Below, one piece after another: positions 30,633 through 59,000 of a stretch of 64,000 nt of DNA. Each line of letters starts with the position of its first letter. Within the stretch, counting starts at the first letter, position 1. The stretch spans positions 372,001-436,000 of the forward strand of contig NZ_AOCK01000001.1 of NCBI RefSeq assembly GCF_000348945.1, in the 5' to 3' direction. Both the position numbers and the translations under genes were made by a program. A model generated the notes under the pieces. That model was not told the origin of the DNA and did no database searches. It saw nothing but the letters and a program-made list of their open reading frames with translations. The DNA is from Paeniglutamicibacter gangotriensis Lz1y. Its GTDB lineage: Bacteria; Actinomycetota; Actinomycetes; Actinomycetales; Micrococcaceae.

Positions 30633-30708
30633 ACACCCCCCCCGAGGGGATACTGTCCCCCCAAAAAAACTTCGCCCCACCCCTAAGATTTCAAGGAGAG
30701 AACAACTT

Positions 30709-37597: not shown

Positions 37598-38416
37598 TCA
37601 GGCTCCGGTCCTTGCGCTGCGTTCGAGAATGGCACGGGCATGGCGCAGCAACGGCTCGTCGGCCATCTGCCCCTCGAACGTGAAGACGCCGCTGGCATTT
37701 TTGGCGGCCTCCAGCAGCCGGTGGGCCCGGGCGACTTCCTCGGTGTCTGGGGTGAAGGCTTGGCGGATGATGGGCATTTGGCCGGGGTGGATCGAGGCCT
37801 TGGCTCCGAAGCCCGAGGCCTGTGCATCCACCGATTCGCCGAGCAGGCCGGCGTGGTCGGCGATGTCGATGTAGACCGAATCGATGGCCACCTTCGAGTA
37901 GGCGCCGGATGCCAGCAATACGTGGGACCGGGCATGGCGGGAGATGTCCCGGTAGGTGCCCGAGGCCTTGCGGGAGGATGATCCGCCCAAGGAAGCGACG
38001 AGGTCCTCGGCTCCCCACATCAGCGCCACGACGTTACCAGCTGCGGCAATCTGTTGGGCGTTGAGGATGCCCAGAGCGGTTTCGCACAGGGCCACCACCT
38101 TGAAGTCGGCAACGGCTGCCAACTGGTCAAGGGTTTCGGTCTTGGCGAGCATGATGGTGCGGTACTTGGTTTGCTGCAGGGTGGTCAGATCCTTGGCGAA
38201 GTCCGGGGTGCTGACCGGGTTCACTCGCACGATGGTGCGTTCGGGATCCAGCGGGTTCGCCACCAACGCTTGGCGCGCGGCCTGCTTGTTTTCCGGGGCC
38301 ACCGCATCTTCAAGGTCCAGGATCACCGCATCGGCGCGTTCCATGGCCTTGGTGTAACGGTCGGGACGGTCGGCGGGACAAAACAGGATGGCTGGTCCCA
38401 TGGTGAAGATGCTCAT
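37598..38416 (-). CDS. CitE-type acyl-CoA lyase (HpcH/HpaI aldolase family)
   Basis: 272 residues, CitE/malyl-CoA-lyase-like TIM barrel: GPAILFCPADRPDRYTKAMERADAVILDLEDAV, then RVNPVSTPDFAKDL, LCETALGILNAQQIA, LMWGAEDLVASLGG and ASIHPGQMPIIRQAF. Catalytic Arg and metal-binding Glu/Asp positions are present. The gene overlaps the carboxylase alpha gene by ATGA. Mycobacterium tuberculosis has the same accD1-accA1-citE arrangement, where the CitE protein acts on beta-hydroxyacyl-CoA such as HMG-CoA; a role as the lyase of leucine breakdown is therefore likely but inferred. Confidence 0.85.
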   Translation of the reverse strand: MSIFTMGPAILFCPADRPDRYTKAMERADAVILDLEDAVAPENKQAARQALVANPLDPERTIVRVNPVSTPDFAKDLTTLQQTKYRTIMLAKTETLDQLAAVADFKVVALCETALGILNAQQIAAAGNVVALMWGAEDLVASLGGSSSRKASGTYRDISRHARSHVLLASGAYSKVAIDSVYIDIADHAGLLGESVDAQASGFGAKASIHPGQMPIIRQAFTPDTEEVARAHRLLEAAKNASGVFTFEGQMADEPLLRHARAILERSARTGA

Positions 38417-40449: not shown

Positions 40450-40455
40450 GAAGCA

Positions 40456-43128: not shown

Positions 43129-43144
43129 GCGATACGTTGAACCT

Positions 43145-43423
43145 GTGATCATCAGTTTCCGGCATACGGGGTTGGAAGCGCTCTATCGTGACAATTCCAA
43201 AAAGGGCGTGCAGCCCGCGCACGCAGCCAAGCTCATCCGCATCTTAGGTTTGCTCGATATAGCTCAGACGCCAGCGGACCTCGCAATACCGGCGTTCCGC
43301 ACGCATGAGCTCAGGGGCAACCTTGCCGGATACTTCTCGATCTGGGTTAACGGCAACTGGCGTGTGACGTTCCGCTTCGTTGGGCAAGACGTCGAGCTCG
43401 TTGACTACCAGGACTACCACTGA
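43145..43423 (+). CDS. higB: HigB-type toxin (RelE superfamily)
   Basis: 92 residues, toxin-first gene order as usual for hig loci. The family pattern is clear: FRHTGLEALYRDNSKKGVQPAHAAKLIRIL, LAIPAFRTHELRGNLAGYFSIWVNGNWRVTFRF, VDYQDYH at the C-terminus. Such proteins cleave mRNA on the ribosome. GTG start. Twelve bp separate it from the antitoxin gene. Confidence 0.92.
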   Translation: MIISFRHTGLEALYRDNSKKGVQPAHAAKLIRILGLLDIAQTPADLAIPAFRTHELRGNLAGYFSIWVNGNWRVTFRFVGQDVELVDYQDYH

Positions 43424-43435
43424 AGGAACCACATT

Positions 43436-43717
43436 ATGATGAAAAACCCACCGCACCCGGGTGAGATCATTCGTGAAGACGTGCTCGCCGAACTCGGCCT
43501 CACCGTTGCGGAAGCTGCGCTGCGGTTGGGCGTCGCCCGCGTGACCCTGAGCCGAGTCGTCAACGGCCGAGCCGGCATCAGCCCGAATCTCGCCGTGAGG
43601 CTGGAGCTAGCAGGAACCGGAACCGCCCGGGGTTGGCTCGCCATGCAGGTGAACTACGATCTCGCCCGGGAGTTGGACGGCAAGGAGCACGATGTGAAGC
43701 CGCTCGACGCTGCATAG
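43436..43717 (+). CDS. higA: HigA-type antitoxin (XRE family)
   Basis: 93 residues, XRE helix-turn-helix: NPPHPGEIIREDVLAELGLTVAEAALRLGVARVTLSRVVNGRAGISPNLAVRLELAGTGTARGWLAMQ, ending in a charged tail. It neutralises HigB and represses the operon. AAGGA precedes the ATG at 43436; the next codon is also ATG. Confidence 0.92.
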   Translation: MMKNPPHPGEIIREDVLAELGLTVAEAALRLGVARVTLSRVVNGRAGISPNLAVRLELAGTGTARGWLAMQVNYDLARELDGKEHDVKPLDAA

Positions 43718-43813: not shown

Positions 43814-44983
43814 CTACAGAGCCCGCAAGATAACGGCGCTGCCCTGACCGCCGCCGCCGCAGATGCCGGTGGCCCCCACTGACCCGGTACCGATTTCGGC
43901 CAGCTGGCGGGCGAGAGTACCAATGATTCGGGCGCCGGAGGCACCGATGGGGTGGCCCAAGGCAATGGCGCCGCCCTTGGTGTTCACAATTTCCGGGTCG
44001 ATCCCGAGCTTCGCGGTGGAGCGTACGCCCACTGCGGCAAACGCTTCGTTGATTTCCACTGCCAACAGGTCCGCCGGGGTAATGCCGGTTCCCTCGAGTG
44101 CTGCCAGGATGGCGTTGGCTGGCTGGTCGTGCAGCGTCACGTCCGGACCTGCCACCAATGCGTGGGAAACGATCTCGGCAATCGGGGTGATTCCCAGACG
44201 TTCCGCGGCGGCCTGGCTGACCAGCACCAGGGCGGCGGCGCCGTCGGTGATTTGCGAGGCGTTGCCGGCGGTGATGGTGCCTTCCTTGGAAAAGGCCGGG
44301 CGCAGCTTGCCCAGTGACTCTACGGTGGTGTCTGCGCGAATCCCGTCATCGGCCGAGACCACGGTGTCCCCGCGCCGGCTCGTGACAGTGAACGGTGCAA
44401 TCTCTCCGGCATGGAAGTCGGCGGCCGCGGCTGCCAGCCGGTGCGAACGGGCAGAGAGCTCGTCCTGCTCGGCACGAGTGATGCCCAAAGTGGTGTTGCC
44501 GTCCTCCGTGGAGGAGCCCATGGAACGGGCCTCGAAGGCGTCGGTGAGTCCGTCGAATTCGAGGGTGTCGATCATTTCGATGGCACCGTACTTGGTCCCG
44601 GCGCGGGCGCGCTGCACGTGGGGTGCCAGCGACATGGATTCCTGGCCGATGGCCACCACGATATCCGCCTCTCCGGCGTCGATCATCCGCGCGCCCGCCA
44701 CCGCGGCCTCGGTGCCTGAGAGACACACGGCGTTCAGCGTCAGGGCCGGGACGTTGAAGCCGATCCCGGCGCCCACGGCTGACTGGCGTGCCGGGTTCTG
44801 TCCGGCGCCCGCCTGCAGCACCTGCCCGGCGAAGACCCGCTGGACCTCCTCGGCGGAGATCCCGGCGCGCTCGAGGGCCGCGGCAGCCGCGTGGGCTCCC
44901 AGTGCCGTGCCGGAAACCGTGGCGAAGGCTCCGTTGAATCGGGCGAAGGGGGTGCGGGCGTACCCGGCGATTAATGCGCTCAT
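43814..44983 (-). CDS. Acetyl-CoA C-acetyltransferase (thiolase)
   Basis: 389 residues. Nucleophile cysteine in [40 protein letters not shown] and the second active cysteine in [12 protein letters not shown]. It cleaves acetoacetyl-CoA into two acetyl-CoA. Start overlaps the scoB stop (ATGA), so thiolysis is coupled with CoA transfer to acetoacetate. Not closely similar to the PcaF thiolase in this window. Confidence 0.92.
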
Positions 44984-45630
44984 GCTGCAATATCTTCCTG
45001 TAGTTCTACGGTAAAGGGGGCACCGGTGACTTCGGTGAGGGCTTCGACGGTGATGCCCGGGGCCATGGCACGCAGCACCAGGGCGGAATCCACCACGTCG
45101 AAGACCGCGCGGTCGGTGATGATTCGATCCACCACACCCACGCCGGTCAGTGGCAGGTCGCAGGTCTGCACGATCTTGGGGGTGCCGTCCTTGGCCACAT
45201 GGTCGGTGATGATGATGACCCGTGGGGCCCCGGCGACCAGATCCATGGCACCGCCCATGCCCTTGACGAGCTTGCCGGGGATGGTCCAGTTGGCCAGGTC
45301 GCCGTTGGCGGCGACCTGCAAGGCACCGAGGATTGCGGTGGCGACGTGTCCGCCGCGGATCATCCCGAAGGAGGTGGCCGAATCGAAGAAGCTGCCGCCG
45401 GGCAGCAGCGTGACGGTCTGCTTGCCGGCATTGATCAGGTCCGCGTCCTCCTCGCCCTCATAGGGGAAGGGGCCCATGCCCAACAGCCCGTTCTCGGACT
45501 GCAGGGTGACGTTGACGCCCTCGGGCAGGTTGTTGGCCACCAGGGTGGGGATGCCGATGCCCAGGTTGACGTATTGGCCGTCGCGTAGCTCGCTCGCGGC
45601 AATGGCCGCCATTTGATCACGTGTCCACAT
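44980..45630 (-). CDS. scoB: Succinyl-CoA:3-ketoacid CoA-transferase subunit B
   Basis: 216 residues, family I beta subunit; catalytic glutamate in [13 protein letters not shown], glycine loop [15 protein letters not shown], and [21 protein letters not shown]. It activates acetoacetate with succinyl-CoA. AGGAGG precedes the ATG. Five bp after scoA. In leucine breakdown acetoacetate comes from HMG-CoA; it is also the product of acetone carboxylation, relevant to the 50-58 kb operon. Confidence 0.92.
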
Positions 45631-45635
45631 GGTGC

Positions 45636-46340
45636 TTATGCCTCCTGGCGGACGCGCACGGTCCGCTGTTCGATGTCCTTGGTGCCGTCCGTTGCGACGA
45701 GGTGCTGCACGTAGATGCCCGGGGTGTCCACCCGGGTCGGATCCAGGTAATCCTCGTGGATGTTCTCCGCTTCGGCGAAAGTGACGCGGCCAGCGGTCGC
45801 CACCAGCGGGTTGAAGTTCCGCGAGGTCATCCGGTAGCGCAGGTTGCCTTCAGTGTCCGCGTCATAGGCGCGGACCAGAGCGATGTCGGCGACGATGCCG
45901 CGTTCCAGGATCGCGGCCCGGCCGTTGAATTCCATGGTTTCCTTGCCCTCGGCCACCGGGGTGCCCACACCGGTGGGGGTGTAGAACGCGGGGATGCCTG
46001 CGCCGCCGGCCCGCAGCCGCTCGGCGAGTGTGCCCTGGGGGACGAACTCGACCTCGAGTTCACCGCTGAGGAACTGCTGGGCGAAAAGCTTGTTCTCACC
46101 CACGTAGGAGGCCAAAACCTTGGCGACCTGCTTGTTTTCCAGCAGCAGGCCCAACCCCTTGCCGTCCACGCCCATGTTGTTCGAGACGATGGTCAGCCCG
46201 GTGGCGCCCGAGTCGCGCAGGGCGGTGATCAGCCGGCTGGGGATTCCGCTGAGGCCGAAGCCGCCCACCGCGATGGTCATGCCGTCGCGCACCTGGGCAG
46301 CCAAGGCCTGCGCTGCGTCGGCTACTACTTTCGTTGCCAT
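45636..46340 (-). CDS. scoA: Succinyl-CoA:3-ketoacid CoA-transferase subunit A
   Basis: 234 residues, family I alpha subunit ([76 protein letters not shown]). ATG 46340 after AAGGAGAATC; seven extra in-frame codons upstream rejected. First gene of scoA-scoB-thiolase, divergent from an IclR gene. Confidence 0.92.
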
Positions 46341-46356
46341 GATTCTCCTTGAAGTG

Positions 46357-46369
46357 TCCACGATGTGGA
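46357..46369. promoter_or_regulatory. Candidate IclR operator before scoA
   Basis: Palindrome TCCAC, GAT, GTGGA, 17 bp from the scoA start and inside the scoA/iclR divergent region; same layout and centre as the GTTCGC-GAT-GCGAAC site before pcaF. Confidence 0.4.
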
Positions 46370-46485
46370 TTACGGCTGGTTCCTACTTCGACCGTAGCCA
46401 AGGGGCGGGATCGCCGTCAACGAAAGAGATTCTATGACGCACGATTGCTCAGCTGGTGACACAGCTCTCGGCGATCGTCCATACT

Positions 46486-47268
46486 ATGGACATGCATACT
46501 TCGTTTCCTGGAGCCCAGGTAGTGGGCAGGATGGCAGCGGTGTTGCGCGCCGTGAGCACCGCGATGCCCCGCGGCATCACTACCGCGGAGGTCGCACGGA
46601 GCACCTCGTTGGCCCGCCCGACCGTGCACCGACTGCTTGCCGCACTGACCGCCGAAGGTTTCTGCGATCACGACCACAAAGCGGGGTTGTGGATGCTGGG
46701 CCCGGAAATGTATTTGATGGGCATGGTGGCAGCCGAGCGCTATGACATCACCGAAACCGCCCGCGACCATGTGACGGCGTTGGCCGACGCCACGGGTGAG
46801 AGTGCATTTCTCTCAGTGCGCCGCGGCGAGGAGACAGTGTGTCTGTTGCGGCAAGACGGGGCCTTCCCAATCCGATCCTTTGTACTTCATGAGGGCAAGC
46901 GATTCCCGCTGGGTGTGGCATCGGCGGGGCTGGCGATCCTGTCCTTCTTGCCGGAGAAGGCGATCGAACGCTACATGGAAAGCCATGACCTGGCTTCGGG
47001 ACATGGCAGTGAGCATGGGCAGGATCTCTTGAGGCAGCGCATAGCCGAGACGCGCGAACGCGGGTGGGCTGTCAACCCGGGGCTGATCGTTGAGGGTAGT
47101 TGGGGAGTGGGAGCGGCGGTGTTCGATACGGCAGGCCAGCCGGCGTGGGCGCTGAGCCTGACCGGTATCGAATCGAGGTTCGCTCCCGAACGCCGTGAGG
47201 AAATGGGTCGGTTGCTGATGCACCACGCACACGAGTTGACCAAGAAGCTGCGCGGTGAGCGATTGTAG
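46486..47268 (+). CDS. IclR-family transcriptional regulator
   Basis: 260 residues. HTH (ITTAEVARSTSLARPTVHRLLAALTAEGFC) and IclR effector domain (FPLGVASAGLAILSFLPEKAIERYM; TRERGWAVNPGLIVEGSWGVGAAVFD). Start uncertain: ATG 46486, ATG 46492 or GTG 46456; no ribosome site is visible, and GTGACA (46456) plus CATACT (46480) could drive a leaderless message from 46492. Divergent from scoAB-thiolase, its likely target. A truncated copy lies at 58.5-59.0 kb. Confidence 0.85.
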   Translation: MDMHTSFPGAQVVGRMAAVLRAVSTAMPRGITTAEVARSTSLARPTVHRLLAALTAEGFCDHDHKAGLWMLGPEMYLMGMVAAERYDITETARDHVTALADATGESAFLSVRRGEETVCLLRQDGAFPIRSFVLHEGKRFPLGVASAGLAILSFLPEKAIERYMESHDLASGHGSEHGQDLLRQRIAETRERGWAVNPGLIVEGSWGVGAAVFDTAGQPAWALSLTGIESRFAPERREEMGRLLMHHAHELTKKLRGERL

Positions 47269-47392: not shown

Positions 47393-50143
47393 CTACTGAT
47401 CCAGGAGCTGGAGTTCGCGGGCTGCATCAACGCATTGCTGGCGATTGGACACGCCAAAAGTGACAAAAAGGCTCTTGAGATACCATTTGACTGTGTTGAT
47501 GCCGATATACAGCGACTGGGCGATTTCCCGGTTCGAAAGGCCACGATCAACCATGATCAGGATCTCCCGTTCCCTTTCGGAGAGCATTGGTGCATCTCGC
47601 CGGCCCGGTACAAGTGCGGTAGTTGCCGGTTCCATGGATTCCTTGGCCCACGTAATGGCGCCGCTACTATCCTGTCCGAACAGTTTTCCAAGATCCAGGA
47701 TCCGCCCGATAAAGGCATGGATCGCTGCTGCGTTCCTGGGAACCCACGCTCCCGATTCCACGGCGCCGGATAGTGAGCGGAGCAGTTCGCGGCAATTCTG
47801 CCTGCGTTCCACCAGCACCATAGGCAGATCCAAGCCGTGGCAAATGGTCAAGACGTCCTTGAATTCCGCCTCGGCCTCTTCTTGATGCCCCGCTGCCTGC
47901 AACGCTTCTGCCAGTGCCAACCGGGCATGCAGAATCTCGTCCTTGTTTCCATGCTCCCGGCGTTGTGCCAACAACTTCGCGGCAAGAGCCGCCGTGGTTG
48001 ACGCGTTGCCGGGCTGGCCGGAGAGCAACATGGACGCAAGGGTTGCAAGTTCCCGGGAGTCATCCACTGCATCCGTGATGTGTGGGTAGGAAAATGCTGT
48101 TCGGCCGTCATCTTGCCACGGGAGGCCCAGATTGGCCCGATCCGCCATGAGCCGCGTGGACAGCCGCGGAAGATCTAGGGCCGCTGCAATTTGTTCGCCG
48201 GCTTCGATGGTCTGGGTGGAGCCCTCCACGTCACCTCGCAAGGCCTGCAGCCTGGCAAGCGTGCTGTAGGTGGCCATCATAAAGTCAGCCACACCTGCGT
48301 GGGCACCCAATTCCTGAGCTTCGACAAGCAATTTTTCCGCTTCTCCAAAGGCGCCGCGCAAATACAACAGTTGCCCAAGCAGTCCACCGGCCAACTTGGC
48401 GGCGTGCGACTGCCGGCCGGCAGAACGGCGTCCCAACTCCAGGGCAGCTTCCAGGTGCCGCTGGGCGGTGTCGATATCCAATTGGGCGAATGCGGCAAGA
48501 CCGGCAAAACAGTGGCCGTAAACCTCGCTGAAGGGACCCGAAGTTTGGTCGTGGGCCACACGGGCCGCATCCTGCGTGGCCATAGCTGCAGCGAAGCTCC
48601 CCTTTTGGAGTTCTGCGTAGGTGGCAATGTTGGCCGCAACCGAAACGATCCAGGGCCGCAATGGTTTTGTCGACTCGAGTACCAACACTCTCAAATCATT
48701 GGTGAGTACTATCTGGTCGGCGTACATTTCAAGGCAACGGCGGACCACCAGGGCCTCCAGCCTCAGTTCTTCCTGATCCTCGGTCCCCAGCGCGCTATCT
48801 GGCCCCAACAAGATCTCAGCCTGCTCGAGGGCGGTACGGGATTCTATCGGGAAGTGCAACAGGCAATTGGCCCAAGCAATTGCCATCTGGAGTCTTGGCC
48901 GTGGTCCGACGCGGGCGGGCGGCAGCTTCTCCACCATGGCCAGCAGCGTCGACATTTGGGAGTGCTCGACCTTGAGCATGGCGTCGGATTCAACGACGTC
49001 AACAGCAAACTCGATGTCTCCGGCGGCCAGGGCATGGTCGACTGCCTCGCTGGTGTGGTTGTGCTCCGCATACCAATGTGCCGCTTTCCGGTGGAGCTCG
49101 GCAACCCGATCGGGTTCGTCACGCTCTAGTCTCTTCCTCAGATACTCCACGAAAAGGTGGTGGTAACGATACCAGGATCCGTCCACGTCCAAGGGCTGCA
49201 GAAAAAGGTCGCGGGCTTGGACCTTCTCGAGCATGGCCTGGCCGCGCCGGACGCCGGAAAGGGTGGAGGCAAGATCGGCGCAGGTCCGTTCCGTGACGGA
49301 GGTGCTGAGCAGGAAATCCAGGACCTCGGGTTCCAAGGTGTCTAGGACGTTCTCCGCAAGGTACTCGCCGATGGCCTGGTGCCTGCCGGAAATCTTCTGC
49401 ACGATCCCGGAAACGTCGCTTTGCCCGCGTAACGACAGCGAGGTCAATTGCAGAGCGGCGGCCCACCCGTCCGTTGATTCAAGGAGCGAGTCGATGTCAT
49501 CGTTGGTGAGCTCAAGTCGGTTGATTCCCACGAGCAGTTGCCAGCTCTCGCGGTGGTCGAAGCGCAGAGACGTTGCATCTACCTCAACCAACTGGTCGCG
49601 GACACGCAGGCGCCCCAAGGGGAGCCCGTTGCGGGTGCGACTGGTGATCACAAAACGGAGGCTCTCCGGTCCCTCGTCCAGCAATCGTTCCAGTACGGCG
49701 CGGGCGCGCGGGTCGAGGATGCGGTGCCAGTCGTCGAGTGCAATGACGGTGGGACGCCGGCTTTCGGCCAGCGCGTTGATGATCGAGGGAACCACATACT
49801 TCTCCGCATCATCGGGGCGCTCCTGGAGAAGTTGGAGTAGCTGTGGATCCAGTTCCGTTCCGGCCTTGAGCAGGGACTCGATCAAATGCGACATGAACCA
49901 AATGGTGTTGTTGTCGTCCTTGTCTAAGGAAAACCATGCAATGACGAAGTTGTCGTCGGCGAGTTCGGCCACCCACTGGGCGGCAAGAGTCGATTTGCCG
50001 TATCCGGCAGGGCCATGCAGGAGAGCCAGACGTTTGTTGCCGCCCGCAGCCAGAACAGCGGTGAGGCGCTTGCGCTCCACCCAACTCATCACCGGGGTAG
50101 GTGGCTGGAATTTCGTAGCCGCAGTTGGCGGACCCAGAGGCAT
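47393..50143 (-). CDS. LuxR-family LAL/MalT-type STAND ATPase regulator
   Basis: 916 residues. N-terminal P-loop STAND ATPase with Walker A GPAGYGKST (44-52) and Walker B-like VIALDDW, MalT-like winged-helix region, a long helical TPR-like sensor domain in the middle (about 400-780, alanine/leucine repeats such as AQRHLEAALELGRRS), and a C-terminal LuxR HTH (LSEREREILIMVDRGLSNREIAQSLYIGINTVKWYLKSLF). Such proteins activate promoters after binding an inducer and ATP. ATG 50143 after GAGGAGAG. It follows the five-gene carboxylase operon on the same strand, and a CCACCC/GGGTGG hairpin precedes it, so it is the likely activator of that operon. Confidence 0.9.
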   Translation of the reverse strand: MPLGPPTAATKFQPPTPVMSWVERKRLTAVLAAGGNKRLALLHGPAGYGKSTLAAQWVAELADDNFVIAWFSLDKDDNNTIWFMSHLIESLLKAGTELDPQLLQLLQERPDDAEKYVVPSIINALAESRRPTVIALDDWHRILDPRARAVLERLLDEGPESLRFVITSRTRNGLPLGRLRVRDQLVEVDATSLRFDHRESWQLLVGINRLELTNDDIDSLLESTDGWAAALQLTSLSLRGQSDVSGIVQKISGRHQAIGEYLAENVLDTLEPEVLDFLLSTSVTERTCADLASTLSGVRRGQAMLEKVQARDLFLQPLDVDGSWYRYHHLFVEYLRKRLERDEPDRVAELHRKAAHWYAEHNHTSEAVDHALAAGDIEFAVDVVESDAMLKVEHSQMSTLLAMVEKLPPARVGPRPRLQMAIAWANCLLHFPIESRTALEQAEILLGPDSALGTEDQEELRLEALVVRRCLEMYADQIVLTNDLRVLVLESTKPLRPWIVSVAANIATYAELQKGSFAAAMATQDAARVAHDQTSGPFSEVYGHCFAGLAAFAQLDIDTAQRHLEAALELGRRSAGRQSHAAKLAGGLLGQLLYLRGAFGEAEKLLVEAQELGAHAGVADFMMATYSTLARLQALRGDVEGSTQTIEAGEQIAAALDLPRLSTRLMADRANLGLPWQDDGRTAFSYPHITDAVDDSRELATLASMLLSGQPGNASTTAALAAKLLAQRREHGNKDEILHARLALAEALQAAGHQEEAEAEFKDVLTICHGLDLPMVLVERRQNCRELLRSLSGAVESGAWVPRNAAAIHAFIGRILDLGKLFGQDSSGAITWAKESMEPATTALVPGRRDAPMLSEREREILIMVDRGLSNREIAQSLYIGINTVKWYLKSLFVTFGVSNRQQCVDAARELQLLDQ

Positions 50144-50378
50144 TTGCTGGCTCTCCTCGATGCACGCCGTCCACCCAACCCGCGTTTGCGGGTTGGGTGG
50201 ACGGACAATAAACACATGTCATGTGACTTTGGTCATGCTATCAGTTCGCGGCTGGGCGCATCCGGAATGGACCTTACCCATGGGGGCTTTGCCTTGCTTG
50301 TGCCACCGAGCAAAGCAAAACCGGGCGTTCCCACGAGTGCCACACCGGCCAAAAACCCGGCAGACCGCGGCGAAGGCC
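50144..50378. other. Intergenic region between carboxylase operon end and LAL regulator
   Basis: 235 bp without a gene. It contains the LAL leader hairpin (50167-50204) and a palindrome CACATG-T-CATGTG (50213-50225). A weak GCTTTGC/GCAAAGC pairing near 50285-50320 could end the carboxylase operon. Confidence 0.5.
50167..50204. promoter_or_regulatory. Perfect 17-bp hairpin in the LAL regulator leader
   Basis: Arms 50167-50183 and 50188-50204, loop GTTT, ending 24 bp before the ATG. The arms contain CCACCCAACCC / GGGTTGGGTGG, resembling the GGGTGGGT repeats before the carboxylase operon. It could be an operator, an attenuator or both. Confidence 0.6.
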
Positions 50379-51182
50379 TTACTTGAAACCCGCCATGAGG
50401 GTGATGACATCTTCCGGCACCGCAGCGGCAGGCAGCTGGGAAAAATAGAAACCGGAGTCGGGAAGCGGCGAGGTGCTCGTGCCCCAGAATCCGCCACTCA
50501 ACACCTGGCCTTCGATCTCCGGCTCCCTGAACGCAACGGAATCTTCCGACCTGATCCCCAAGGTCCAGCGGTAGTTTTGGGCCACGTTGATGATGGGGGT
50601 GTAGACCTCGAGCCCCACCGCTGGGAGCTGTGCGGACCCCGCTGGTGTCCGGTCATCGAGCAAGACTCCGGCAATCGGAAGCGCGGAGAAATTCCGCAAC
50701 CAATCGGCGACGTACATCGAGGCGTTCTCCGCATCATCGGCGTCCAGGTCCGCGGCGTCGTCCTTTCCGGAGAAGGCATGGGTGGCGACCAGCCATGCCA
50801 TGGGAGATGGGACATGCAACACCACGGCTTCCCGTTGTGTCTGCGAAAACGTCTTGGCGATACCCATGACAAGTTCAAGGGTCTGTGCATCGGCCAGCAT
50901 GGTTCGCAGGGCAAAGCCCGTCCGGCTTCTGGCGGACATATCCTCGTGCAGGGATTGGCCGGTCGCCATCCGGTGTGCATAAAACCGGTCGAGATGAAGC
51001 AAAGCGGCATCCGGCTTGAGCAGCCCCTGTGCCTGGCCAATGAAATTGGCGTAGGCCATGGGATCTTCCCACGGGATGGGACGGTTTTGCAGTATCACCG
51101 CCTGGGAGTAATCGAGGTGGTCAAGAATCACTGCATGCTTCCGGCCGGATTGCGGCTCGGCGATGACATTTGCCAGATTCAC
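50379..51182 (-). CDS. Fifth protein of the ketone-carboxylase operon (unassigned; possible epsilon-subunit equivalent)
   Basis: 267 residues, soluble, no signal peptide or membrane helix. I do not recognise a domain; notable segments are RKHAVILDHLDYSQAVILQNRPIPWEDPMAYANFIGQAQGLL and WTLGIRSEDSVAF, with an acidic stretch KDDAADLDADDAEN in the middle. GTG start at 51182 after AGGAAAGGAG at ideal spacing; the frame is open further upstream without support. It is the last gene of a five-gene operon whose other members match acetophenone-carboxylase subunits, and acetophenone carboxylase has a fifth, about 34-kDa subunit. Equivalence is inference from position and size. Confidence 0.7.
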   Translation of the reverse strand: MNLANVIAEPQSGRKHAVILDHLDYSQAVILQNRPIPWEDPMAYANFIGQAQGLLKPDAALLHLDRFYAHRMATGQSLHEDMSARSRTGFALRTMLADAQTLELVMGIAKTFSQTQREAVVLHVPSPMAWLVATHAFSGKDDAADLDADDAENASMYVADWLRNFSALPIAGVLLDDRTPAGSAQLPAVGLEVYTPIINVAQNYRWTLGIRSEDSVAFREPEIEGQVLSGGFWGTSTSPLPDSGFYFSQLPAAAVPEDVITLMAGFK

Positions 51183-51300
51183 TGTATTTGCTCCTTTCCT
51201 TGCACGGACCTTGCTGGATGATTGGTGACGGTGAAGCGGTGCCTCCCGCCATGGCCGGGGCCAGGGACGGAAAGGCACCACTTCACCGATGATGCGCGGC

Positions 51301-53616
51301 TCAGGACTTGTGGAGCACGGTTTCCCCGTACTTCGCCTCAAGCTCGCGGATCCTCTTGTCTTGGGCCTCGATCTTTAGCACACGGCGATCCGGGATCATG
51401 ACCAATGGGATCTCGCTGAGCTTCCCCTTCACCCGCTGTGGTTCCTGCCCGCCCCAGTGGGTGGCGAAGACCTCTTCATCGTTGTCCTGGCCCCAGGAAC
51501 CGTAGTAGAGCAGATCCGCCGGTGGCTCCTCCGTGACAAAGTCCTTGATGAACTCCCTGAACGGCGTGCCACGGGCGATGCGGCGCTTGCGTGCCTCGGC
51601 CCGCGCGTCCTTCGTGCCCTGGACATCGACAACGAAGGTCTCCGGATTCCAGACCACTGCGTACAGGTCGGTGGCAACCTGGGCGGAAATCCTATCGAGC
51701 TGCAGGTCGGTCGCCACCATCTCCGGGTCGCGTTCCAGGACGTCGCCGTAGCCTCCACCGGAACCCTGGGAGATCATGTACAGCTCGCCCTCCTTGGCCA
51801 CATCGAACTGGAGCCCCATGTGGGCGCTCTGGTAGGAGCCGCCCTCGTAGGGCTGCTCGTTCATGATGCGCTCGATCGACAGGTCGAACTGCGAGGGATC
51901 CTTGCGGATGATGTCGTAGATGTTGATCCCCTTGACGATCGACAGCGGGTACGTCGGGCAGCCATAGCCACCAAACATTCCGGTGATCGAGGAGAACTTT
52001 GAGCCGGAGGTCACCGTCATGAATCCCCAGTTGGGCGTTCCTCGGGAGGCGACGATCATCTCGTATCCCATGCCGCCGCGGTACTTGCCGAAGCCCTGGT
52101 TGTCACGCACCAGCCGCTTGGACACCAGCTGCAGGAACGGGACCTCCTCCTCCATGACCTCCTGTTCGGCAATGTCGGCCATGGCGCAGAACAACGGGGC
52201 CACCGCGTCTTCGCCGTCCCTGAAGGCCTTGGCCCCGCCGCCCATCCCGTTCAGGTCGGCACACAGGTTGCCCACCTGCTCACCGTGCTGGGTGGTGCCG
52301 CCCCACAGGAAATCGTTGATCTGGTTGAACCACGGGGCGATCACGTTGGAGTATTTCTTGGGGGTGGAGAACTGCAGCTTGGCATATGCGGTCTGCAGCG
52401 CCGAGAAACCCCTGAAGGAGCCCTGCAGCGACTGGCCCACCGGTGCGTCGTAGCCGGCGTCGGCCCACGAATGCTCCTCGGAAATCACCTCGATGGGGGA
52501 CAACGCGCCCGTGCTTCGTGGCAGGTCGGGCCACCAATAGGAGAGGATCGCCTGGGTCATGAAGGCCTTGGTGGACCCCAGGGGCGAGTTGATGGCACGA
52601 TTGAGGATTTCCGGTCCGGTGCCGGTCAGATCGACGATCAGCCGGTCACCCTTGACCGTGATCTTGCAGGCGAACTTGATGAGGATGTTTTCCTTCAACG
52701 TGGAATCCATGAACTGATTGAACGTCACGGTGCCATCGGGCAGTTCCTTGATGCGCCGGCGCACCTCGACCTCGACATTTTCCACGGTGACGCGCAGGGC
52801 CGCCACGAATGACTCTTGGCCGACCTCCTCGATAATGCGGTCCACGGACTCGATGACCCGGCGCACCGCGCCCATTTTCACCTTGATGTCCGCAAGCATC
52901 AGCTTCGGATCACGGGTGGAGTGCTGGAGGAAGGTCAACAGGTCGCGGCGGAGGTGGCCGCGCTCCACGATCTTGATCGGGGAAGCCCGCAATCCGTCAT
53001 CGAAGGGGGTCTCCGAACCCGAGGGCATGCCCCCGGGTTCGCAGGCGCCGTTCTCGCCCTCGTGGATGGTGGCCCCGACCCAGGCAATGATCTGGCCATC
53101 GCGCATCACGGGCACGAGCATTGACTGGTCGGTGTTGTGCACCATGCCGTAACGCGAGTCGTTGTGGAAGAATCCGTCGCCGGGGTGGATGCCCACGGTC
53201 GGCTCGTCTTTCCAGTTCTTCATGATGTAGCGGATTGGGTGGTGCAGGACCGCGGAGAAGGCGATCACGCCGCGGTTGGACAGGTAGGTCACATCCCCTT
53301 CCGCTGTGTACACGGCCACCGAAAGATCGGCCCACTTGGCGCCAGGGGCCGCGCCCATGCTCTCGCACATTTCGAAGGCCTCGTCCAGGGACCCTGCCAG
53401 GCGCTTGCGGATCCGGTCCATCTCCAAGGGGCTGATGCCCTTGGAAATGCACTCGTCCTCGTAGGCGGTGCGCGCGTGGATCTGGTGGTTGCGCATGATC
53501 TCCGGGTCGGGGCCCAGGAACAGCGTGGTCTCGTCCATGAATTTGTCGACCCACTGCTGTTCCTGTGCGCTCAGGATTTCTTGCGGGTTTCCGGTGTCAT
53601 TGGTTGTCAGCGTCAT
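51301..53616 (-). CDS. HyuB-like subunit of acetone/acetophenone-type carboxylase
   Basis: 771 residues (about 86 kDa), hydantoinase B/oxoprolinase fold, matching in size acetone carboxylase alpha (about 776) and the large subunit of acetophenone carboxylase. Recognisable segments are VGIHPGDGFFHNDSRYGMVHNTDQ, GRIVDLTGTGPEI-type core (RLIVDLTGTGPEILNRAINSP), the KYRGGMGYEMIVASRG region and QGSGGGYGDVLERDPEMV. These proteins host the carboxylation site. ATG 53616 after AAGGAG; the upstream TTG at 53625 is less likely. The HyuA-like gene ends 6 bp upstream of it. Confidence 0.85.
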   Translation of the reverse strand: MTLTTNDTGNPQEILSAQEQQWVDKFMDETTLFLGPDPEIMRNHQIHARTAYEDECISKGISPLEMDRIRKRLAGSLDEAFEMCESMGAAPGAKWADLSVAVYTAEGDVTYLSNRGVIAFSAVLHHPIRYIMKNWKDEPTVGIHPGDGFFHNDSRYGMVHNTDQSMLVPVMRDGQIIAWVGATIHEGENGACEPGGMPSGSETPFDDGLRASPIKIVERGHLRRDLLTFLQHSTRDPKLMLADIKVKMGAVRRVIESVDRIIEEVGQESFVAALRVTVENVEVEVRRRIKELPDGTVTFNQFMDSTLKENILIKFACKITVKGDRLIVDLTGTGPEILNRAINSPLGSTKAFMTQAILSYWWPDLPRSTGALSPIEVISEEHSWADAGYDAPVGQSLQGSFRGFSALQTAYAKLQFSTPKKYSNVIAPWFNQINDFLWGGTTQHGEQVGNLCADLNGMGGGAKAFRDGEDAVAPLFCAMADIAEQEVMEEEVPFLQLVSKRLVRDNQGFGKYRGGMGYEMIVASRGTPNWGFMTVTSGSKFSSITGMFGGYGCPTYPLSIVKGINIYDIIRKDPSQFDLSIERIMNEQPYEGGSYQSAHMGLQFDVAKEGELYMISQGSGGGYGDVLERDPEMVATDLQLDRISAQVATDLYAVVWNPETFVVDVQGTKDARAEARKRRIARGTPFREFIKDFVTEEPPADLLYYGSWGQDNDEEVFATHWGGQEPQRVKGKLSEIPLVMIPDRRVLKIEAQDKRIRELEAKYGETVLHKS

Positions 53617-53621
53617 TGCTC

Positions 53622-55799
53622 TCAAGCTCCTTGGAATTGAAGTTTGGTGGTCACATCGGTCGTATTGGTGGGGTCTTTGAGCAGCCAGACTGCGCCCTGC
53701 GGGGTTGGCTCAAGGCGCCATCCCGGTTCCACGAGGTAGGTGGTGCTCTCGGTGGTGACCAGCGCAGGGCCGTTGATCACGTAGTGGCTCTTCAGCGACA
53801 TCGTGTCGTAGATCGGCGTATTTACCGGATCCTCCTCATCGGTGAAGTGGATGGTGCGTTCGGCGACGGCCACCGGTTCGATGCGACGGGTTCCGCTGGA
53901 GTCCAGTGACTCGAATTGGACCACGTCCCCGTCGATGTAGGAGGCGACCCGGACCGTTTGCACGCGCACCCCGGCCTCGGGGGCTTGGGTGCCTTCGCCG
54001 TAGCGGTCGCCGAAGATGTCGGAGAATGTCTTGATTAGGTGCAACACGGCCCCGGTTCCCTTGACGCGGTTGATGTCGAAGGCGACTGCGGTGGTCACCA
54101 GCTGGTTGCCATAGCGCATGTCCATCTCCAGGCGGTACTTGACCGAATCGCGGTCGTACCCCTGGCGGACCAAGTCCTCGGCGCCCTTCTGCTCGAGCTC
54201 CTCGATGTAGTTGTTGATTGCGTCGTAGTCGTTGTAAAGACTGCGTTCCAGGGCGTCGTAGAGCACGATGTAGGCACTGCGTTCGTGGATGTGCAGCGGC
54301 TTCATGTTCCCCGCGCCGAGCGCGGAGAACACCGAGGCAAAGGGTGGGAAGAGGATCTTGCTGATGCCGGCACGGGACGCGATGCCGCAGGCGTGCAGCG
54401 GGCCGTTGCCGCCGTAGGCCAGCATGGTGTAGTCCTCGACCAAGCCGCCGCGGGTGCGCAGTTCCTTCTCGATGCCGATAGCCATTTCCTCGTCGACCGT
54501 GCGCTTGATGATCTTGGCGACCTGGATTGCTTCCAGATCCAGTTCGTCGGAGAAGGCCTCCTCGATCGCGTAGGCTGCTCGCTTCTTGTTCAGCGGGATG
54601 TAACCGTTGGCGTAGTTCTCCGGGTCCAGGTATCCCAGCACCAGATCGGCGTCGGTCACGGTGGGCCGCAGGCCGCCGCGGTCGTAGCAGGCCGGTCCCG
54701 GGTCGGAACCAGCGGATTCGGGACCGATCTTGATGGCACCGTGGATGCGGTCATAGGAAGCGATGGAGCCGCCGCCGGCGCCCAGGGTGTTCAGGTGGAT
54801 CATGGGTGCTGAGACCATCCAGCGACCAATGGTCGGCTGGAAATCGTAGTGCTTGATGCCGCCCTCGGGAACCAGCCCGATGTCGAAGGAAGTCCCGCCC
54901 ATGTCCATGGAGACCACGTTGCCCAGCCCCGTGGTTTCCGAGAGGTGCTGCGCGCCGCCGACACCGGCGATGGGACCCGAGTGGATGGTCTGCAGTGCAT
55001 CGGTGGAGTTTGGCTGGGCCATTCCGCCGGAGTTGTGGATCACCAGCATGGGCTTGTCGTAGCCCGATTCGCGCAGGTTGCTGGAGAGCTGGTTCAACGC
55101 GTGGAACATGGTTTGGTGAAGGAATGCGTCCACCACCGTCGACATGGCTCGGATGTATTCGCCCTTGCGCCCGGAAACCTGGCTGCTGAGCAACACCGGG
55201 ATCGCTCCAAGCTCATGGGCCGGGTATTCCTCGAGGATGATCTCCAGGATTCTTTCCTCGTGGTCGGCGTTCTCGGTGGCATTGGTCAGTGCCACGACGA
55301 TGGCTTCGGCCCCGTTGTCGACTAGTTCGCGGACCTGTTGGCGCACGTCTTCGTACATCAAGGGGACCAACACGGTGCCGATGGAATCGATGCGTTCCTT
55401 GACGGAACGCACAAGGTGGCGCGGGACAAGGGGCTCGGGGCGTTGTGCGTCGGCCATGTCGCCCTGCTTCAGGGGGTCGAGGCCTTCACCGTAACCGCGT
55501 CCGCGGGAAAGGTGGATGGTGTCCTCGAAACCGTGGGTGACCAAAACCCCGACGCGGGGTCCAACACCCTCGATCAATGCGTTGGTTCCCAACGTGGTCG
55601 CGTAGCGTACGGAGTCGACTTCCTTCAGCGCCTGCTGGCGGCTGACTCCGGCTCGATCGCACGCCAGGTCCAAGGCTTCATTGAAGCCCAAGGCCAGGTT
55701 GTGGTGGGTGGTCAGGGCCTTTGACTCTACATAGATGTCGTCCCAGACGAAAAAGCAGTCACTGAACGTACCACCGATGTCAACAGAAATGCGTTTCAT
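53622..55799 (-). CDS. HyuA-like subunit of acetone/acetophenone-type carboxylase (larger)
   Basis: 725 residues (about 79 kDa), hydantoinase A/oxoprolinase ASKHA-type ATPase. N-terminal phosphate motif SVDIGGTFSDCFFVW; central VSMDMGGTSFDIGLVPEGG and AYGGNGPLHACGIASRAGI; C-terminal beta-rich part ending LEPTPQGAVWLL. Size matches acetone carboxylase beta (about 717). It activates the ketone and/or bicarbonate by phosphorylation. ATG after AGGAG. Confidence 0.87.
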   Translation of the reverse strand: MKRISVDIGGTFSDCFFVWDDIYVESKALTTHHNLALGFNEALDLACDRAGVSRQQALKEVDSVRYATTLGTNALIEGVGPRVGVLVTHGFEDTIHLSRGRGYGEGLDPLKQGDMADAQRPEPLVPRHLVRSVKERIDSIGTVLVPLMYEDVRQQVRELVDNGAEAIVVALTNATENADHEERILEIILEEYPAHELGAIPVLLSSQVSGRKGEYIRAMSTVVDAFLHQTMFHALNQLSSNLRESGYDKPMLVIHNSGGMAQPNSTDALQTIHSGPIAGVGGAQHLSETTGLGNVVSMDMGGTSFDIGLVPEGGIKHYDFQPTIGRWMVSAPMIHLNTLGAGGGSIASYDRIHGAIKIGPESAGSDPGPACYDRGGLRPTVTDADLVLGYLDPENYANGYIPLNKKRAAYAIEEAFSDELDLEAIQVAKIIKRTVDEEMAIGIEKELRTRGGLVEDYTMLAYGGNGPLHACGIASRAGISKILFPPFASVFSALGAGNMKPLHIHERSAYIVLYDALERSLYNDYDAINNYIEELEQKGAEDLVRQGYDRDSVKYRLEMDMRYGNQLVTTAVAFDINRVKGTGAVLHLIKTFSDIFGDRYGEGTQAPEAGVRVQTVRVASYIDGDVVQFESLDSSGTRRIEPVAVAERTIHFTDEEDPVNTPIYDTMSLKSHYVINGPALVTTESTTYLVEPGWRLEPTPQGAVWLLKDPTNTTDVTTKLQFQGA

Positions 55800-55828
55800 G
55801 TCCTGTTTGCTCCTTTTGGAATTCTGGC

Positions 55829-56266
55829 TTAGCGATGCGAATGGTTGTGGTGGCCCTCGTGCGTCGAGCGCATGTCGGTGACGGCGTTTTCGCCCGGACC
55901 GTAGTCGACAACGAGTTCGGGGTCTTCCCCTCGTTCCTCCCATTGCGTACGCAGCGCATCGATGTCCCAGATCATGTCGATTGTCGGCGGGTGGCCCGGC
56001 GGAAGGTACTCGGTCTCCATCTGCGTGCCGCACTTCGGGCAGCAGTATTCGAGGATGCGGCAGTAGGCGGGGTCCGGTGAGAACGTGAACTCATACTTCT
56101 CCGGGTCAATGATCGGGGGGTGGATCTCGCGGGGGTCGCGGTCGTAGACAAGGGTGCCTTCCTTGTAGCTGCCGCGGGCGTCACCGAGGTTGTGGCCGCA
56201 TGGGCGGCACACCCACTGTTCGGTGGAAAGGTCGATGTAGAGGTATTCCGTCATGGGGACGCGCAT
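55829..56266 (-). CDS. Small zinc-ribbon subunit of acetone/acetophenone-type carboxylase
   Basis: 145 residues (about 16 kDa). Two cysteine pairs, WVCRPCGHNLGDA and YCCPKCGTQMETEY, form a zinc site; the spacing and the following LPPGHPP region resemble the gamma/15-kDa subunit of acetone and acetophenone carboxylases (which carry CECGH ... YFCPECGT). His-rich C-terminus (EGHHNHSHR). Start ambiguous between ATG 56266 and ATG 56254; neither has a strong ribosome site. Placed between the two HyuA-like genes. Confidence 0.83.
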   Translation of the reverse strand: MRVPMTEYLYIDLSTEQWVCRPCGHNLGDARGSYKEGTLVYDRDPREIHPPIIDPEKYEFTFSPDPAYCRILEYCCPKCGTQMETEYLPPGHPPTIDMIWDIDALRTQWEERGEDPELVVDYGPGENAVTDMRSTHEGHHNHSHR

Positions 56267-56328
56267 GGTCGGTGCCTGGCTTTCTGTCTTGGTGGTTCAA
56301 AAGGCGGAGCGAAGGAAAAGAGCAGTGG

Positions 56329-58251
56329 CTACTGCGAGTCGGAAAGCAGCAGGTCGCCTGCGGCGGAAATATCGAGGACCCAGCCGGCAGGGACCCGGGT
56401 CGTGAAGAACGGTCCCTCCACGATGGCCGGTCCCGCGGCTGTGGCTCCGGGTGCTTGCTCCTCGAGCTGATACACCGGGATCTGGTCCACCAAGTCGGCT
56501 GAGGAACGGACCGAGCGGGTTCCCGCGGCCACCGCCTTGCTCTTTGACTGTTCGTGGTTGCCCGGCAGTGTCGGGTGGGGGAGGGCATAAGTGCACTTCA
56601 GTGAAAGCAGTGCCAACTGGCCGTCAGTTATTTGCGGGGTTGTGGTTTCGTCGAATAGTGATTCCCTGGCCAAGGAGCCATCTGCGTTTTCAATGACAAG
56701 CGTCCAGTCAAGGTCGCATTCATTGATTGTGTGTCCCTCCTGGAACATGTCACGAGCCGCGCGCCCTTCCATCTCCACCCTTGCCTCATCGATCTGTGCG
56801 GCCGATGCCCCGGTGATGTCGATTTCATAGGTTTGTGAGATATCCGAGAAACTGATCCCGAAAGCCGAGAACACCGCGGCGAGACGCGGGATCAGCACGT
56901 GGCGCACTCCCGCGATCCGGGCCGCGAGGCATGCGCTCATCGGACCGCCTCCACCGAACGCGGCAAGCGTCGTCGTGTCCGCGTCCTGGATCGTACCGGA
57001 GAAAGCCGAGGCCATCTGCTCGGCGTAGGTCCGCTCCATGAGGATCAGTGCCTCGTCGAGGCTGATGCCCAGGGGCTCGGCAACGGTCGAGGTGATGACC
57101 GCCCTGGCGCGCTCGGCATCCAGCTTCAGTTCCCCGTTGAGGTAGGTGGCAGGATCGAGCACGCCCAGCAGCAGGTTGACGTCGGTGATGGTTGCCTGGC
57201 GGCCGCCAAACCCGAAGCAGGCCGGCCCGGGTGCCGCGCCGACGCTGTCGGGGCCAACGGTGATCTCGCCGTTCTGCACGGCGATAACAGAACTTCCGCC
57301 GATGCCCTTGGAATGGACGTTGCTCATCTCGTAGGAAATGGGCACGCCCTTGACGCTTCCGCGGCGATCCGTGGAGATCTCCGAGTTCAGTACCGAGCCG
57401 ACGTCCGTGGTGGTCCCACCCACGTCGATCATCAGCACGTGCTTGAGCCCGTAGGCATCTGCCAGTGCCCGGGTTCCCTCTAACCCGCCGCGCGGGCCCG
57501 AGGAATAGGTCTTCAAGGCCACCGACTTGGCCACACGGGAGGACGCCCCGTCGTTGCGGTAGATCAGAAGCGGGTTCTTGACCTTGTAGGAACGCAGCCG
57601 GTGCTCGGCGCTGTACAGGAAACGCTCGACGGTGGGGTGGAGGAAGGAGTTGATGATTCCCGACCAGATCCGGCGGCTGCGCAAGGTGTCGGAGGTGAAA
57701 TCCCAGGAGAAGAGCACCGGCACAGAGCCGAGCAAATGCCGGGGGAAGTTCTTCAGCATCGCACGCTTGTAGAGCTTTTCGCGGTCGAGGTCCACTGCGG
57801 CAACGACCAGGCGTTCGGCGCCGGCCGTGGTGAGGCGGTTGATCTCGGTGACCAGCAGCCGAGCGCGGGAATCCTCGTCGCCGTCCACCGGAAGCAGGCT
57901 CACCCGTTCCCCGATCAGGTCGTCAAAAAGCCTGGATGCCTCGGGATCCTTGCGCAACTCCGCCACGAGATTCGGGTCGTCGGTGATCAGGCCGATGCCA
58001 GGACCTTTTCCCTGGACCAATGCGTTCGTGCCTTGGGTCGAGGAATAGCGGATATGACGTGTGGAGTGGAGCAAGGACGGAAGGTCTTCCTGCCCGTAGA
58101 TGGTGGTCGAGGCCTTGGCCAGGCCATCGAAGAGACACTGGGACAGGTCGGCCGGGGTTGTCAGCGTCTTCGTGAAGGTGAAATCGGTGCCGCTTCCGAC
58201 GACGATGTCGGTCAGGGTGCCACCGTTGTCGATGTTGATCAAACGTTCCAT
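56329..58251 (-). CDS. HyuA-like subunit of acetophenone-type carboxylase (smaller, first gene of operon)
   Basis: 640 residues (about 69 kDa). Phosphate motif INIDNGGTLTDIVVGSG at the N-terminus, LMIDVGGTTTDVGSVLNSE and AFGGGGPMSACLAARIAGV in the middle. A second HyuA-like subunit is what separates five-subunit acetophenone carboxylase (70, 15, about 87, 75 and 34 kDa) from three-subunit acetone carboxylase. ATG 58251 with GGGAG 5 nt upstream; 130 extra open codons upstream cover the repeat-rich promoter and were rejected. Confidence 0.86.
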   Translation of the reverse strand: MERLINIDNGGTLTDIVVGSGTDFTFTKTLTTPADLSQCLFDGLAKASTTIYGQEDLPSLLHSTRHIRYSSTQGTNALVQGKGPGIGLITDDPNLVAELRKDPEASRLFDDLIGERVSLLPVDGDEDSRARLLVTEINRLTTAGAERLVVAAVDLDREKLYKRAMLKNFPRHLLGSVPVLFSWDFTSDTLRSRRIWSGIINSFLHPTVERFLYSAEHRLRSYKVKNPLLIYRNDGASSRVAKSVALKTYSSGPRGGLEGTRALADAYGLKHVLMIDVGGTTTDVGSVLNSEISTDRRGSVKGVPISYEMSNVHSKGIGGSSVIAVQNGEITVGPDSVGAAPGPACFGFGGRQATITDVNLLLGVLDPATYLNGELKLDAERARAVITSTVAEPLGISLDEALILMERTYAEQMASAFSGTIQDADTTTLAAFGGGGPMSACLAARIAGVRHVLIPRLAAVFSAFGISFSDISQTYEIDITGASAAQIDEARVEMEGRAARDMFQEGHTINECDLDWTLVIENADGSLARESLFDETTTPQITDGQLALLSLKCTYALPHPTLPGNHEQSKSKAVAAGTRSVRSSADLVDQIPVYQLEEQAPGATAAGPAIVEGPFFTTRVPAGWVLDISAAGDLLLSDSQ

Positions 58252-58424: not shown

Positions 58425-58504
58425 GAGGCAGTGAACGCGTTGCGCCTGACGATTTTTGCGGTGTGTAGGGAATGGTCTTTCTGACGCTTGGGCGTGGTTG
58501 ATCA

Positions 58505-59000
58505 GCCCGGCCTGTGGATGCTGGACCCGGAGTTGTACCGGATGGGCATCGTGGTGGTCGGCTGCTACGACATCGCCTGCCCCTATGTTTCGGTGCTGGC
58601 CGAAGCCACGGGCGCGAGCACGTTCCCGCTGGGCGTGGCATCGGCGGGGCTGACGATTCTGTCGTTCTTGCCGGAGAAGCCGATCGAACGCTACATGGAA
58701 AGCCATGACCTGGCCTCGGGTCATGGCAGCGAGCATGGGCGGGAGCTGTTGATGCAGCGCATAGCAGAGACGCGCGAGCGCGGGTGGGCTGTCAACCCGG
58801 GTCTGATCGTTGAGGGTAGCTGGGGAATGGGAGCGGCGGTCTTCGATACGGCAGGCCAGCCGGCATGGGCGCTGAGCCTCACCGGCATCGAGTCGAGGTT
58901 TGCTCCCGAACGGCGCGATGAGATGGGCCGGTTGCTGATGCATCACGCGCACGAGTTGACCAAGAAGCTGCGCGGGGAGCAAGCGCTGCCCGCCCGATGA
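58505..59000 (+). pseudogene. Truncated copy of the iclR gene at 46486-47268
   Basis: Open frame of 170 codons matching the IclR protein from GLWMLGPEMY onward, about 90% identical at DNA level by eye over its last 350 bp. The whole N-terminal HTH is missing, and about 33 codons between the ALADATGES and FPLGVAS regions are deleted. It cannot bind DNA as IclR. Same orientation as the parent. Confidence 0.85.

Follow-up and report, generated by a model that had tools for sequence, protein, structure and literature searches.

Which ketone, if any, is carboxylated by the product of a five-gene operon in Paeniglutamicibacter gangotriensis Lz1y, and to which of the known ATP-dependent ketone carboxylases is this enzyme related? 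The operon occupies 58251-50379 on the minus strand of the window, the 64,000-nucleotide stretch of DNA that we analysed (contig NZ_AOCK01000001.1, positions 372,001 to 436,000, of a 4.32 Mb genome in 20 contigs). Our analysis indicates that it very probably encodes a five-subunit, biotin-independent, ATP-dependent ketone carboxylase with the architecture of acetophenone carboxylase (Apc), and that its physiological substrate is probably acetone, possibly butanone too. The five genes, A to E, are all open and stand in the order alpha', gamma, alpha, beta, epsilon, with intergenic gaps of 62, 29, 5 and 118 bases (A-B, B-C, C-D and D-E). Reading frames and family searches confirmed the gene sizes, order, coordinates and families given in an original prediction from the sequence, including a gene E of no known family:

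56329..58251, minus strand: gene A, subunit alpha' (ApcA-type second ASKHA kinase), 640 amino acids (aa); best PDB match ApcA of 5L9W, E 1.3e-77
55829..56266, minus strand: gene B, subunit gamma (ApcB/AcxC-type zinc ribbon), 145 aa; PF08882, E 1.1e-37
53622..55799, minus strand: gene C, subunit alpha (ApcC-type kinase), 725 aa; ApcC of 5L9W, E 1.6e-148
51301..53616, minus strand: gene D, subunit beta (ApcD/HyuB-type), 771 aa; ApcD of 5L9W, E 1.8e-82
50379..51182, minus strand: gene E, subunit epsilon, 267 aa, GTG start, no known family

Each of A to D found its best solved-structure match in a subunit of Apc (PDB 5L9W). A and C belong to Hydantoinase_A (PF01968, E 1.7e-57 and 9.6e-75, respectively), D to Hydantoinase_B (PF02538, E 2.9e-85) and B, which carries two CxxC pairs, to Acetone_carb_G (PF08882). 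B matched the gamma-type chain of 5L9W at E 3e-33 and the gamma subunit of acetone carboxylase (Acx) only at 3.5e-7, and C, so close to ApcC, matched Acx at 7.1e-83. Relatives' loci were taken from one scan, as the best 80 of 96; 76 were counted as the clade of the window and 4 as near relatives, of which there were 8 in total. Genes at these loci were called by codon usage; longest-open-reading-frame calls were noisy in GC-rich DNA. The same gene set and order recurs in most of the 80 loci, and the five-gene set is therefore far beyond chance. Locus L004 comes from Paeniglutamicibacter psychrophenolicus.

In a tree of C proteins (61 rows, with support from the Shimodaira-Hasegawa-like approximate likelihood ratio test, SH-aLRT), the window fell in the Apc branch, outside both Acx and the hydantoinases (SH-aLRT 99 for the Apc superclade, 100 for the Acx clade and 99 for the hydantoinases). 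The true Apc, 5L9W, grouped with loci L210, L221 and L225, and the window lay in a distinct deep clade with 25 other five-gene rows, the 8 near relatives being adjacent. A tree of D proteins (45 rows, with no hydantoinase outgroup) gave the same groups, with a branch of support 100 parting Acx from the window and 5L9W. Both trees were quick ones run with no bootstrap on the window and chosen clade loci (25 for C, 13 for D, of 76); they omitted L216, whose D was misread, and, for size, 12 of the 21 Acx loci outside Helicobacter and 13 of the 15 within it, and one row of the D tree, L219, was a bad extraction with a branch of 7.6. The two trees and the structure matches bear out the original prediction that this is a five-gene ATP-dependent ketone carboxylase of Apc rather than Acx type. 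The same prediction had named grouping of the subunits with hydantoinases as the outcome that would speak against it: in the C tree, it was the host genome's own two hydantoinase loci that fell in the hydantoinase group, apart from the window. Also in that tree, the HyuA-like part of L002 (G000:C1:498898-500481, in the host's own genome) sat very near N-methylhydantoinase 7HK5 (branch 0.086).

The gene order alpha'-gamma-alpha-beta(-epsilon), a mark of the Apc branch (PMC5214803), is that of the window, and where Acx has three genes, one kinase and a place in the Acx clade, the window has five genes and lies outside that clade. A further mark of the Apc branch, a beta subunit about 50 aa shorter than that of Acx, is absent, the window beta being 771 aa long. 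Beta proteins measured 767-819 aa in 23 of 25 clade rows; among the other Apc-type rows, 7 of 10 fell at 683-710 aa, and among the Acx rows, 7 of 11 at 737-771 aa, the rows outside these ranges being over-long readings. Against the NCBIfam models for Apc, all four subunits scored at 20-51% of the cut-off (bits/cut-off: A 330/1250, B 129/250, C 537/1500, D 302/1500), which places the enzyme in the Apc branch and yet, by this curated test, not among the acetophenone carboxylases.

The kinase and metal-site motifs are intact. A carries the ATP motifs DNGGTLTD, DVGGTTTD and GAAPGP, and C carries DIGGTFSD, DMGGTSFD and GSDPGP. The alpha fingerprint [R/K]ERIDSxG reads KERIDSIG in the window C, and a looser pattern was found in none of 25 A proteins; across the clade C proteins, the exact form occurs in only 5 of 26 and the looser form in 13. 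By homology with Apc, A is predicted to be the bicarbonate kinase and C the ketone kinase. Beta keeps D97, H160, D163 and H185, the residues at which mercury was bound in Apc, and all four are identical in 25 of 25 aligned clade rows.

The substrate pocket is another matter. At seven published positions of the alpha pocket, whose assignments are tentative in their source paper, 26 of 26 clade rows read T,I,H,P,I,H,L and Apc reads L,F,N,P,I,Q,T, a difference at five of the seven. This invariance suggests one substrate throughout the clade. One of the changes, F281I, loses an aromatic side chain; the position of Phe281 is L, I or M in 10 of 11 Acx rows, and its loss here, as in most Acx rows, fits a non-aromatic substrate. 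In the alpha' pocket, all 25 clade rows examined carry S, D and D at the positions of E248, D274 and K281 of Apc.

Gene E had no match in Pfam or NCBIfam at E 0.001 and none in the PDB at E 10. It is present at 59 of the 65 clade loci outside Helicobacter, and at the other 6 the retrieved sequence stops either before D (2) or less than 200 bases past it (4). With a profile built from 47 E proteins, we found E in all 16 Helicobacter genomes that have an Apc-like gamma and in 0 of 18 others; it is linked in 5 of the 16, and in the remaining 11 it is on a different contig or over 50 kb away. That E is kept after separation argues for a working role in the enzyme like that of ApcE in Apc, and its co-inheritance likewise argues for a real subunit. 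The clade epsilon matches that of the near relative L241 with a probability of 99%. No sequence kinship was detected between E and the epsilon-position genes of the other Apc-type loci L210, L216 and L217, with HHalign probabilities of 0.6% and 2.0% (E 0.091 and 0.024); between the epsilon-position genes of L210 and L241, BLASTP gave E 0.095. The Apc epsilon has been reported as very divergent (PMC5214803).

The genes around the relatives' loci point toward the product. The scoAB genes, which encode a 3-oxoacid CoA-transferase (SCOT), stand at 36 of the 76 clade loci, always within 6 kb: at 11 of 11 in Helicobacter and 25 of 65 elsewhere. They lie downstream on the same strand in 15 cases, upstream on the same strand in 11, upstream on the opposite strand in 6 and downstream on the opposite strand in 4. 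Among controls, whose flanks were shorter than those of the clade, scoAB was found at none of the 8 near relatives, the 11 other Apc-type loci and the 21 Acx loci outside Helicobacter. When only loci with 4.5 kb of sequence to either side were counted, scoAB stood at 24 of 59 in the clade (all 10 in Helicobacter and 14 of the 49 elsewhere) and at none of the 28 controls, made up of 5 near relatives, 6 Apc-type loci of other groups and 17 Acx loci outside Helicobacter; the clade outside Helicobacter differed from the controls with a Fisher p of 0.0013, kinship not being allowed for. Nine further in-clade regions included scoAB in 3; six of the nine repeat or may repeat counted loci, and four of those repeats are too short to include the scoAB seen in the longer loci. 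Close to epsilon in 2 of the 8 near relatives (L200 and L238) is an acetoacetate-CoA ligase (TIGR01217, above cut-off), and in a Neorhizobium plasmid operon, also a near relative (beta 54% identical), a CoA-transferase A/B pair adjoins epsilon.

The ligase kind expected for benzoylacetate is a PaaK-like one, with AMP-binding and AMP-binding_C_2 domains. Using that of L210 as the probe in place of Bal (30% identity, half coverage), we found a PaaK-like ligase at all 3 loci that fall with 5L9W; none was found at the 76 clade loci, the 8 near relatives or the 21 Acx loci. Zinc alcohol dehydrogenases occur at 12 of the 76 clade loci, and Thiolase_C_1 thiolases at 13.

Both carboxylase types occur in Helicobacter. 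Searching 34 genomes of the one genus to which the H. heilmannii locus belongs for gamma, we found 15 with an Acx-type gamma, 16 with an Apc-like gamma, 3 with neither and none with both intact; one Acx-type genome has an additional weak gamma fragment with stops. From their gene order, the 15 Acx-type genomes would be the H. pylori group. In 31 of 31 regions, of both types, scoA, scoB and a thiolase gene lie upstream on the same strand. For the H. pylori cluster, a route from acetone to acetyl-CoA has been proposed, and mice were colonised less well when one of its genes was inactivated (PMC2244623). In the C and D trees, the Helicobacter genes of the Apc-like type nest within the actinobacterial clade, beside a Psychrobacter. 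The sco genes of these genomes average 58.8% to those of the Acx genomes versus 52.8% to actinobacterial ones (the sco tree has a single distant outgroup and a weak root), so that carboxylase and sco apparently did not travel together. In H. bizzozeronii, the cluster was described near scoAB-fadB, and an alternative pathway was considered given its low identity to acxABC (PMC3234257).

The reading of acetone as the probable substrate draws on the scoAB linkage, the acetoacetate-CoA ligase in near relatives, the Helicobacter setting, the absence of PaaK-like ligases, the changed pocket and the zinc alcohol dehydrogenases at some clade loci. In such an enzyme, by homology with Apc, alpha (C) would phosphorylate the enol of the ketone and alpha' (A) would phosphorylate bicarbonate, beta and gamma (D and B) would form a scaffold with the D-H-D-H metal site and the zinc ribbon, and epsilon (E) would join transiently and be needed to complete the cycle. 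The acetoacetate released would be converted by SCOT to acetoacetyl-CoA and by thiolase to acetyl-CoA. We infer the substrate, the stoichiometry of 2 ATP to 2 ADP and the pairing of each kinase with its substrate. More broadly, we lean, by a modest margin over even, toward a second solution to acetone carboxylation, with Apc architecture, separate acetone and bicarbonate kinases and a new epsilon family, spread across Actinobacteria; gastric Helicobacter of the heilmannii/suis type would have acquired the enzyme from an actinobacterial relative into the thiolase-scoAB setting that holds AcxABC in H. pylori. None of the titles and abstract beginnings returned by our searches of open-licence papers describes a five-subunit acetone carboxylase.

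Downstream of epsilon, the window itself holds two regulator genes and the scoAB-thiolase genes:

47393..50215, minus strand: MalT/LuxR-type STAND regulator, 940 aa, a possible regulator of the operon; relative in 16 of 80 loci
46456..47268, plus strand: IclR-family regulator, divergent from scoAB; relative in 14 of 80 loci
45636..46361, minus strand: ScoA, 3-oxoacid CoA-transferase subunit A (TIGR02429, 234.9 bits, cut-off 128.5)
44980..45630, minus strand: ScoB, 3-oxoacid CoA-transferase subunit B (TIGR02428, 322.2 bits, cut-off 243.55)
43814..44983, minus strand: acetyl-CoA C-acyltransferase, a thiolase (TIGR01930, 361.5 bits, cut-off 240.55)

Beyond the scoAB-thiolase genes is a biotin-dependent acyl-CoA carboxylase pair, biotin carboxylase and carboxyltransferase (38413-42066, minus strand). 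Between the thiolase and a TetR-like gene (43140-43700, plus strand), a small gene pair picked out by eye is presumably a HigB/HigA-like toxin-antitoxin pair. A second CoA-transferase pair, perhaps PcaIJ, lies at 30676-31955 (plus strand), and the genome has 8 CoA_trans matches, as four neighbouring pairs. Upstream of the operon, at 58488-59000 (plus strand), we saw by eye a truncated IclR-like C-terminal fragment, with no Pfam match at 1e-15. Relatives are 74-79% alike in DNA at both this fragment and the downstream IclR gene, indicating that partial IclR copies flank the operon. Farther afield, a haloarchaeal five-gene cluster on a Halorientalis marina plasmid (L257, beta 39% identical) is adjacent to AMP-binding and thiolase-domain proteins, and weak Acetone_carb_G matches within open frames of 643-801 aa at L104, L105, L110, L111, L123, L124, L125 and L162 may be fusions that join gamma to a large subunit.

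Several observations weigh against acetone as the substrate. Neither scoAB nor acetoacetate-CoA ligase appears in the examined flanks of 40 of the 76 clade loci, including 16 of 17 in Cryobacterium, and the control flanks were shorter, leaving only 3 control loci for a comparison at 6 kb. The presumed acetone enzymes, Acx outside Helicobacter, lack scoAB at every one of their loci, so that its presence does not mark acetone carboxylation in general, and SCOT can serve other 3-oxoacids. In the window, scoAB lies 4 kb from the operon with a regulator gene between and the acyl-CoA carboxylase pair on its far side, a position in which it may serve another pathway. AMP-forming acyl-CoA ligases of another kind occur at 7 of the 76 clade loci, and the host genome encodes, away from the operon, a single protein related to the PaaK-like ligase, at 33% identity. 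The alpha' residues replaced throughout the clade, E248 and K281, belong to the bicarbonate pocket of Apc. Finally, the Helicobacter split runs between lineages and amounts to one event or a few rather than 31 independent ones, and one of the 16 Apc-like genomes, G828, yielded no clear C gene and has a block of decayed appearance.

Could the substrate be an aromatic ketone instead, as in Aromatoleum, with an aroyl-acetate passed to a CoA ligase and thiolase? The original prediction leaned this way, toward acetovanillone or hydroxyacetophenone, and the five-subunit architecture and position in the Apc branch would suit such an enzyme. Similar clusters in H. bizzozeronii (PMC3234257) and Rhodococcus ruber (PMC6498646) were published as acetophenone carboxylase, the Apc of Aromatoleum works aerobically too (PMC4729919), and many of the clade loci have no acetoacetate enzyme nearby. 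We nevertheless consider it unlikely: the PaaK-like ligase present at every locus grouping with 5L9W is missing from the whole clade, most alpha pocket residues are unlike those of Apc, the curated Apc scores are far under their cut-offs, and gastric Helicobacter retain the operon beside scoAB. The relatives' neighbours point away from an aromatic ketone and to acetoacetate chemistry. Plasmid pRHL2 of R. jostii RHA1 carries an operon of the same five-gene type (by a beta 75% identical, and by annotation and order for the remaining genes), and RHA1 is reported not to grow on acetovanillone or 4-hydroxyacetophenone, its acetophenone genes being acpAB (PMC9618137). Another missing step could also be the cause of this lack of growth.

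Butanone or longer aliphatic or alicyclic methyl ketones as the main substrates, with acetone a minor one, strike us as a shade less probable still. The alcohol dehydrogenases and Thiolase_C_1 thiolases at some clade loci would fit them, as would an alkane 1-monooxygenase that one Rhodococcus plasmid carries some 8.5 kb past the operon, but the repeated SCOT link and the acetoacetate-CoA ligase in two near relatives indicate acetoacetate as the product. A hydantoinase or 5-oxoprolinase-type amidohydrolase with no carboxylase activity, to which the Hydantoinase_A and Hydantoinase_B families alone might lead, is barely credible: hydantoinases have two subunits and no gamma (PMC5214803), while the operon has gamma, alpha' and epsilon, and the C tree parts it from the host's own hydantoinases. 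Acetone stays the favoured substrate. The original prediction held that the sequence does not decide the substrate; the sequence record reaches further toward it than that, but falls short of biochemical proof.

How does this enzyme compare with known systems? With the Apc of Aromatoleum aromaticum (ApcABCDE, 5L9W), it shares the order apcABCDE, two kinases, the gamma zinc ribbon, the D-H-D-H site and an epsilon-position gene. It differs in its separate deep clade, its longer beta (771 versus 684 aa), its changed alpha and alpha' pockets and the lack of a PaaK-like ligase near clade loci; for epsilon, kinship was judged from L210, L216 and L217 rather than from the Aromatoleum ApcE. With Acx (AcxABC; Xanthobacter 5SVB and H. 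pylori acxABC), it shares the predicted reaction from acetone to acetoacetate, the scoAB-thiolase neighbours in Helicobacter and a long beta (771 versus 776 aa). Acx, however, has three subunits and one kinase (PMC5543143), its subunits are only 23-35% identical to those of the window in the best segments, and its metal site, formed by Glu89, His150, Asp153 and His175 (PMC5543143), has a glutamate where the window beta has Asp97. The H. bizzozeronii and R. ruber clusters, published as acetophenone carboxylase subunits 1-4, appear to be of the same type as the window's, and their papers name acetophenone or "an alternative pathway" as the function (PMC3234257, PMC6498646).

HpeCBA, the acetovanillone/4-hydroxyacetophenone carboxylase, likewise carboxylates a methyl ketone with ATP and bicarbonate, but HpeCBA and XccBCA are biotin-dependent, and HpeCBA acts only on the phosphorylated ketone (PMC9618137). 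Its authors call it not homologous to Apc (PMC9618137). Given its biotin dependence, the original prediction's choice of Hpe for comparison was misplaced, and a phylogeny including Hpe was dropped on both grounds.

If the acetone assignment is true, annotations in actinobacteria and gastric Helicobacter would be corrected, and the analysis also offers epsilon proteins whose co-inheritance supports their status as real subunits. Weidenweber et al. proposed that the mechanistic difference between Acx and Apc may track aliphatic versus aromatic ketones, at a time when a single enzyme of the Apc branch was characterised (PMC5214803). If an enzyme of five subunits acts on acetone, architecture and substrate are uncoupled, and the question of mechanism becomes directly testable: the difference between Acx and Apc would then not be dictated by whether the ketone is aliphatic or aromatic.

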